Shown piece after piece: positions 48,807-64,000 of a stretch of 64,000 nt of DNA. Numbering within the stretch: the stretch's first letter is position 1; each line of letters begins with the position of its first letter. Both the position numbers and the translations under genes were made by a program. The notes below the pieces were generated by a model. That model searched no databases, was not told the DNA's origin, and worked only from the letters and a program-made list of their open reading frames with translations. The DNA comes from Planctomycetaceae bacterium (GTDB taxonomy: Bacteria; Planctomycetota; Planctomycetia; Planctomycetales; Planctomycetaceae). The stretch is from positions 124,001 to 188,000 of the forward strand of contig JAHBXV010000001.1 in the NCBI GenBank assembly GCA_019636285.1, read 5' to 3'.

Positions 48807-49196
48807 ATGGACCACGCCGCCGAGGCTGAACTGCTCAAACTCAGCCGTCAACTGCTCGACTCGATTGATTCCGGCAACTGGGCCGCGTACTGCGAACTGT
48901 GCGACCCGTCGATCACCTGTTTCGAGCCCGAAGCGAACGGCCATCTCGTGGAAGGGATGCCGTTTCATAAGTTCTATTTCGACCTCCCGGGATCGGGAAC
49001 GCCGAAGCAATCGTCGATCGTATCACCCAAGGTGCGCGTGTTCGGCGATGGCGCCGTGGTGACCTACGTCCGCGCGGTGCAAAAGCTGACCGCGGACGGG
49101 GCTCCCGTCACCGTCTGTGCCGACGAGACCCGCGTCTGGCAGCGCATTGGCGGTGCTTGGAAACACGTTCATTTTCACCGTTCGCCGTGCGCGTAG
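48807..49196 (+). CDS. CaMKII association domain-like protein (NTF2-like fold)
   Basis: A 129-residue protein matching the association domain of calcium/calmodulin-dependent kinase II, an NTF2-like fold. The signature ITCFEPEANGHLVEGMPFHK followed by FYFDLPGSG is nearly identical in bacterial and animal members, as is the end GAWKHVHFHRS. No kinase domain is present; bacterial members are stand-alone and probably oligomeric, with unknown ligands. ATG 48807 has AGGA 12 bases upstream; the frame is open to 48702. Its stop codon TAG is the first three bases of a palindromic repeat at 49194. Confidence 0.85.
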   Translation: MDHAAEAELLKLSRQLLDSIDSGNWAAYCELCDPSITCFEPEANGHLVEGMPFHKFYFDLPGSGTPKQSSIVSPKVRVFGDGAVVTYVRAVQKLTADGAPVTVCADETRVWQRIGGAWKHVHFHRSPCA

Positions 49197-49325
49197 TGCT
49201 TTGTCAATGTGAATGATTCGGGTGTGTGCCACTGGCTCCGCCAGTGCGTCTTGTTATGGACGATCCATTTAAGGCACACTGGCGGAGCCAGTGGCACACG
49301 ACGATTCTCAGTTTCGCCGTGAGTC
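49194..49325. repeat. Palindromic MITE-like repeat, copy A
   Basis: About 132 bases. The core arms are GTGTGCCACTGGC / TCC / GCCAGTG (49224-49246) and its reverse complement (49275-49299); each arm is itself a hairpin CACTGGC-TCC-GCCAGTG. Outer parts are also related: the left begins TAGTGCTTTGTCA, the right ends TTTCGCCGTGAGTC. Its first three bases are the stop codon of the CaMKII-AD gene. Copy B at 63654-63783, read in reverse complement, matches over nearly the whole length. No coding capacity. Confidence 0.85.
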
Positions 49326-63634: not shown

Positions 63635-63653
63635 CCTCGCCGCCTTTACTTCT

Positions 63654-63783
63654 CAGCTTGTCACAGCTTCACTTCAGGGTGCCACTGGCTCTGCCAGTGT
63701 GCCTTGATTTGATCGGCCGCAACACGATGCACTGGCGGAGCCAGTGGCACACAATCCCTCTATTTCACCGTGACAAAGCACTA
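63654..63783. repeat. Palindromic MITE-like repeat, copy B
   Basis: About 130 bases, inverted relative to copy A. Core arms GTGCCACTGGC-TCT-GCCAGTG (63679-63699) and CACTGGC-GGA-GCCAGTGGCAC (63730-63750). Ends: CAGCTTGTCAC (63654-63664) and GTGACAAAGCACTA (63770-63783). Reading the minus strand, it begins with TAGTGCTTTGTCA, identical to the start of copy A, and the TAG is the pnp stop codon. No coding capacity. Confidence 0.85.
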
Positions 63784-64000
63784 TTCGCCTTCAGCCGGAA
63801 CTTCTTTTGCCGCGGCCTCGGCCAGCACGGCCTTGCGTGAGAGCTTGACGCGATTCTGTTCGTCGATCGCGATGACCTTCACCTGGATCTTGTCGCCAAG
63901 CTTGACCACGTCATCGATCGACTTCACGAAGCTGTCGGACAGCTCGCTGATGTGGCACAATCCGTCCTTGCCAGGAGCAATCTCCACGAAGACCCCGAAG
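63781..64000 (-). CDS. pnp: Polyribonucleotide nucleotidyltransferase, C-terminal part (truncated by the window)
   Basis: Only the last 72 codons are inside the window; the gene continues beyond 64000. The visible part is an S1 RNA-binding domain with [40 protein letters not shown] and [10 protein letters not shown], matching the C-terminal S1 domain of PNPase, which degrades RNA 3' to 5'. Ribosomal protein S1 or another S1 protein is a less likely alternative; PNPase is favoured by PGKDGL and by the acidic Glu/Ala tail. Its stop codon is the first three bases of repeat copy B. Confidence 0.75.

Follow-up and report, generated by a model that had tools for sequence, protein, structure and literature searches.

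Why should two different genes end exactly where two copies of the same repeat begin? In the window, as we call the whole stretch of 64,000 nucleotides analysed here, the 13 bases TAGTGCTTTGTCA occur exactly at 49194 on the forward strand and at 63783 on the reverse strand, and at a third place with two mismatches (0.34 expected). As a preliminary description of this DNA had noticed, the TAG that opens both copies, here called A and B, is the in-frame stop codon of their host genes, which encode a CaMKII-AD-domain protein and the pnp product (with S1, KH and RNase_PH domains), respectively. The four exact occurrences of an 11-base arm form two inverted pairs, one in each copy, and TIR, arms and spacer can all be aligned between A and B (Table 1). 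Inverted arms, TIRs and the many genomic copies reported below bear out the earlier view of a palindromic MITE-like repeat. Most probably (roughly 0.85), it is a MITE of the IS630/Tc1-mariner type, whose coincidence with stop codons would result from target preference and survival, and not from a stop-codon function.

Table 1. Features of copies A and B and of their host genes in the window
Feature	Position	Strand	Basis
Host gene A, CaMKII_AD-domain protein, 129 aa	48807..49196	+	ORF, codon model; Pfam PF08332, profile positions 2-127 of 128
Stop codon TAG of host gene A	49194-49196	+	ORF
Copy A, left-hand copy of the putative target TA, supplying the first two stop-codon bases	49194..49195	.	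Alignments; TA-duplicating family; flank consensus C-T-A
Copy A, left IS630-type end: TIR GTGCTTTGTCA (49196-49206) and subterminal 17 bases	49196..49223	+	
Copy A, arm 1 GTGTGCCACTGGCTCCGCCAGTGC, hairpin; unit also flanks RAYT-like genes	49224..49247	+	
Copy A, inter-arm spacer	49248..49275	+	
Copy A, arm 2 (inverted)	49276..49299	-	
Copy A, right flank, no recognisable right TIR; model match stops at 49305	49300..49325	+	
Host gene B, pnp, 3' part within the window; stop TAG 63783-63781	63781..64000	-	
Copy B, left TIR GTGCTTTGTCA	63771..63781	-	
Copy B, arm 1	63729..63752	-	
Copy B, arm 2 (inverted)	63677..63700	+	
Copy B, degraded right TIR TGACAAGCTGA, preceded by AAGC	63653..63663	-	

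Both copies belong to a family spread over the genome (6.37 Mb in 113 contigs), where places matching the TIR with at most one mismatch number 40, compared with 6 for a reversed-pattern control. The search for the arm that the preliminary description had proposed, through the whole genome and its relatives, gave 363 matches with up to three mismatches in the source genome (control, 1) and, at one mismatch or fewer, matches in 19 of the 59 genomes searched, the source genome included. The element is short and non-coding, and its full layout reads TA/GTGCTYTGTCA-17 bases-GTGTGCCACTGGCTNNGCCAGTGC-spacer-inverted arm-about 25 bases/TA, with a TIR at both ends (13 bases counting the TA) and GTGTGCCACTGGCTNYGCCAGTGC as the single-strand arm sequence. 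An intact element measures 132 bp with the flanking TA on both sides, as in the three copies where the TIR search matched both ends (C2:74956-75087, C37:210066-210197 and C41:67157-67288). At 33 of the 40 places gathered by their TIR, a near-canonical arm lies at a fixed distance from it (position 29 or 32-34 from the TAG), and at the remaining 7 the arm is altered, shifted or cut. A profile run over 138 stretches (574 kb; 100 fetched around listed places, merged with earlier loci and the window) gave at least 165 element matches, a sample of the genome's copies that covers 105 of 108 further clusters. TA is the commonest flank at both ends and is decayed in about half (left, 35 of 73-odd; right, 43); it is clearer than in this genome in a second set, obtained from a scan of GTDB genomes, whose 43 stretches hold younger-looking copies and lie mostly (39) in MAG CAMAVB01, labelled Ca. 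Kuenenia stuttgartiensis. This MAG (L340 and others) is densely packed with the element despite its Kuenenia label, which may be wrong; otherwise, the element is found in Planctomycetes-labelled MAGs (Fuerstiella, Planctomicrobium).

Some copies depart from this layout. In L148:2621-2722 (C69), both arms have been swapped in concert for a GCCGCGGCTCTGCGAGCCGTG-type hairpin with the ends unchanged, that is, a core swap, and several copies (e.g. L122, L144, L108, L092, L148 and L115) have their spacer split by a second, nested repeat whose ends resemble CTAACACAACC...GGTTGTGTTAG. Single arms (e.g. L104, L133 and L119) adjoin another hairpin repeat, GAGCCTGGGAACGAG, and the apex GGCTCCGCC is common to that hairpin and to the arm hairpin of the element.

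The ends of the element are those of DDE_3 (IS630) transposase elements (L175, L177, L211, L212 and others), and relatives of about 1.2 kb from TIR to TIR, with ends matching those of the element, are present in sister genera. In L177 (G021) and L175 (G036), the C-terminus of the IS630 transposase and its TGA run directly into TIRs like the right end of the element, which matches that of L175 at 20/25 positions. Paired TA-flanked ends were found at 15 of the 30 IS630 loci examined, the copies closest to the MITE being L211 and L212, with 21/28 and 25/28 identities at the left end and 22/25 and 20/25 at the right (shuffled sequence gives about 7/28). In the case of copy A, the left end shares 23/28 positions with L212 and 21/28 with L211 and L214, again with about 7/28 for shuffled sequence. 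A search of seven genomes for DDE_3 gave a single match in the source genome, with ends other than those of the element, and this distant locus is also the source-genome match in a search with the L177 domain, which found matches in 28 of 61 genomes. A transposase of the matching IS630 subgroup was not found in the source genome, a provisional result given a draft assembly of 113 contigs. The MITE would thus be an IS630 derivative of the internal-deletion type with a foreign core. Two of the IS630 copies have features of their own: the transposase of L177 (1381-2478, minus strand) lies in two frames that meet at a run of seven T/A, either a frameshift site or the sign of a broken copy, and the copy at the right end of L214 seems to have gone into a MITE-like end at its TA (TGACAAAGCAC/TAG), which is consistent with regenerated CTAG targets.

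The core between these ends points to a different transposition system. A search for PF01797 (Y1) gave 9 matches in the source genome and at least 54 in nine other genomes, and among the 58 distinct Y1 loci checked (L280 duplicates L209) arms were present at 5, on both sides of L205, L264, L272 and L270 and on one side of L271. The flanking arms of the first four are inverted and 656-664 bp apart, one L272 arm carrying two mismatches, and the Y1 proteins of these loci are 65-85% identical to one another, those of L271 and L280 being about 40% identical to them. The L205 protein contains the motifs EHIHLL and YIHHNP, which we take to be RAYT-like. Classes of RAYTs have been described (PMC6006769). 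The foot, or sequence before the stem, is GTGTGC or GGGTGC and not GT[AG]G, so the core is RAYT-linked without being a canonical GTAG REP. As its arms also flank the four related Y1 genes, the MITE has the look of an IS630 shell around a REPIN-like core. The 20 relative stretches inspected show the same arms with varied ends or other TIR subtypes. The 24-base arm unit also occurs in two contigs of the IMG/VR viral collection (L383 and L384).

How often the ends coincide with stop codons was tabulated, with orientation, along the lines the preliminary description had suggested, from genes called by a simple codon model trained in this analysis and applied unchanged to the IS630 flanks in other genomes. 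A stop lies at offset 0 from 54 of 184 projected ends, in 54 different elements, every other offset occurring three times at most; the codons are 46 TAG, 7 TAA and 1 TGA. With stricter TIR matching, 44 of 110 sampled elements in which one or both ends are well kept have a stop exactly at the TIR (21 at the left end and 23 at the right), as do 18 of the 39 in which both are. Among the 165 sampled copies, none spans a called gene, and only 3 of 110 have divergent genes as neighbours.

A simple pathway would account for these positions. The element would be made of the two ends of a 1.2-kb IS630 transposon, 28 bp from the left and about 25 bp from the right, around two inverted hairpin arms, and a transposase acting in trans would insert it at TA, preferentially within CTAG, duplicating the TA. 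Both ends read TA/GTGC outward; because the element starts with G, a stop codon hit at its TA, whether TAG or TAA, would again read TAG, with the length of the protein kept. Insertions within genes would be purged by selection, so that the survivors, presumably neutral, would be intergenic or located in stops, and since a large proportion of non-coding CTAG sites are stops, many copies would be expected at gene ends. Of the earlier proposal that the repeat inserts at, or carries, the stop codon, insertion at the stop and supply of its last base (target TA plus the G of the element) are retained, and a stop-codon function is not.

The flanks at sites away from stops indicate the target. At the 105 non-stop ends of this genome, C, T and A precede the element in 67%, 52% and 55% of cases, at the 74 ends of the second MAG set in 82%, 77% and 72%, and C stands before TAG at 21 of the 22 ends of 11 IS630 copies in relatives (11 of the 15 with paired ends; L221, L222, L223 and L228 were omitted for diverged ends, a contig start or a spurious-looking pair). 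The target therefore appears to be CTAG with TA duplicated, preferred rather than strict. Tenzen and Ohtsubo are said to have found in 1991 that IS630 prefers TA in CTAG. At stop-sited copies C precedes TA in only 43% (n=44), compared with 67% at other ends, which favours a softer null, a strict CTAG not being the rule there.

The coincidence of two genes ending at the same repeat had been judged unlikely by chance, and chance is indeed rejected, but the proper null is the share of stops among CTAG or TA targets and not a random position. In 400 kb of other sequence of this genome, from stretches chosen by hand by position rather than randomly by program, CTAG sites number 64 in coding DNA, 16 in stops, 40 in intergenic DNA and 4 at stretch edges. 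Stops thus account for 16/60 of non-coding CTAG sites, or 16/43 when divergent regions and edges are left out (27-37%), and 40-46% of the elements are found at stops. If the preference for CTAG is no more than 5- to 8-fold on each side, 24-27% of elements should lie at stops, a figure that the data exceed about 1.5-fold; across nulls that use TA alone or weight CTAG softly, the prediction is 16-27%, and 44/110 lies above it (p = 1e-9 at a null of 16%, 0.016 at 30% and 0.16 at 35%). Elements between tandem genes are close to the start of the next gene, many at less than 60 bp, and promoter avoidance therefore lifts the null little. In CAMAVB01, stops represent 4/33 or 4/23 of non-coding CTAG sites (12-17%), and elements occupy stops in 7 of 40 cases (8 of 44 when four other genomes are added). 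The share of elements at stops is therefore near the CTAG null in both genomes, and we conclude that target and survival explain most of the stop coincidence. It had been reasoned that a lack of stop preference among other genomic copies would refute a special relation to stops; copies are often found at stops, but about as often as stops occur among non-coding CTAG sites. A modest extra retention at stops is possible in this genome, for example if losing an end that supplies a stop were harmful.

This residual excess, 40% against 24-27% under the soft nulls, is also what could be expected if the element or its transposase sought gene ends, or if a hairpin that improves 3' ends through termination or mRNA stability selected for stop-sited copies. 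The small number of copies in divergent regions agrees with this explanation, as do the RNA folds, which are very stable (z -9.65 and -5.30), although any near-palindrome is expected to fold strongly. Either end of the element serves the stop about equally often, however, and 3 of the 11 IS630 copies, which lack the arms, also have a called stop exactly at an end (L211, L218 and L236, the last at both ends), which indicates that the hairpin is not required. Moreover, the second MAG stays close to its CTAG null, intrinsic terminators (hairpin plus T run) are at background level (2 found, 2.6 expected), the promoter and terminator scan gave nothing above background, no Rfam family matched, and compensatory changes were seen in 0 of 7 pairs, in a sample whose gathering by arm patterns biases arm conservation and blunts the comparison. 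Selection or targeting for gene ends is thus unlikely, and neither a 3' processing signal at the end of the element nor a hairpin stabilising mRNA ends, both suggested at the outset, is supported.

The stops could also be new ones, created by insertion into Tyr codons (TAC or TAT), in which case the element would truncate its hosts. In 4 of 24 copies at stops the far TA is followed by C, the base expected if a Tyr codon had been hit, but the base after the far TA does not discriminate (purine in 20/24 stop copies and 27/37 others). Host proteins are mostly complete: in all 10 examined, the final Pfam domain stops no more than 2 positions short of the end of its profile, and in the comparison with orthologs (26 loci examined; the genus of the source genome comprises one genome) the end residue is the same as in the host for GspE (8/8) and TrxR (7/7), EF-P orthologs end within one residue, and the two GatA orthologs are off by 2-3 residues. 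A general truncation of hosts, and with it the Tyr-codon origin, is therefore quite improbable. The possible exception is pnp, where 5 of 8 orthologs have tails at least 3 residues longer past the aligned part, so that the insertion of copy B may have cost this protein part of a variable tail, but no domain. As for a canonical GTAG-type REP or REPIN mobilised by a RAYT only, whose GTAG would give the stop, the arms do flank four related Y1 transposase genes, and REP ends giving TAG stops have been reported (PMC3733652). But the stop here is supplied by the IS630-type end and not by the arm, which lies 28-33 bp from it, C and not G precedes the TAG, and the foot of the arm is of another type, which makes this origin highly improbable; it is refuted for the ends of the element and stands for the core only.

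With insertion at CTAG followed by survival as the preferred reading, a further and rather tentative idea concerns the chimeric build of the element. An IS630 MITE may have taken up a REPIN-like pair that a RAYT-like Y1 transposase recognises, one enzyme copying or homogenising the core and the other moving the whole. The ends, with G after TA and C before the far-side TA, would also rebuild a stop and a CTAG at each end, so that stops could serve as reusable safe landing sites. In any case, several planctomycete genomes combine IS630-type ends with RAYT-linked arms, which suggests that a single small element can be shared by two transposition systems.

Repeat ends that supply stop codons are known in kind, from GTAG REPs and from BOX. 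What is added here is an explanation by CTAG and a leading G, for which two genomes were compared with a CTAG null, and a RAYT-linked core in an IS630 shell; neither the leading-G explanation nor this combination was found in the literature searched, nor was this element or any MITE of its kind in planctomycetes, subscription papers (e.g. on ERIC and YPAL) lying outside its reach. The model offers a simple and testable reason for repeat-supplied stops, a target within the stop codon that is completed by the first base of the transposon, and it predicts that genes with TGA stops would be immune. It also warns that coincidences of this kind should not be taken for 3'-end regulation.

Among known systems, IS630 itself shares the CTAG target and the duplicated TA, but is a full transposon, and its TIR sequence probably differs from that of the element. 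RUP of pneumococcus (PMC2229807) and MITEPlu5 of Photorhabdus (PMC6267812) are IS630-related MITEs and, as far as described there, are likewise short and non-coding, with TIRs common to an IS630 element, a duplicated TA and a strong fold, whereas the element described here targets CTAG, has a core of RAYT-linked hairpin arms and has no matching transposase found in its host genome. BOX of Streptococcus pneumoniae, a different element, also supplies stops, encoding the 3' stop in 36 of the 58 genes that it overlaps, with evidence for truncation that is not strong; the BOX passage of that paper gives no target-site explanation (PMC3049150). The ends of GTAG REPs often provide TAG stops, and the repeats of TIRtrons, with their TIRYTs, are of a non-GTAG type (PMC3733652). 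The present element resembles REPINs/RAYTs and TIRtrons in its inverted hairpin pairs, which also flank a Y1 transposase, but unlike GTAG REPs it has GTGTGC as its foot, and its hairpin pair travels inside IS630-type ends.
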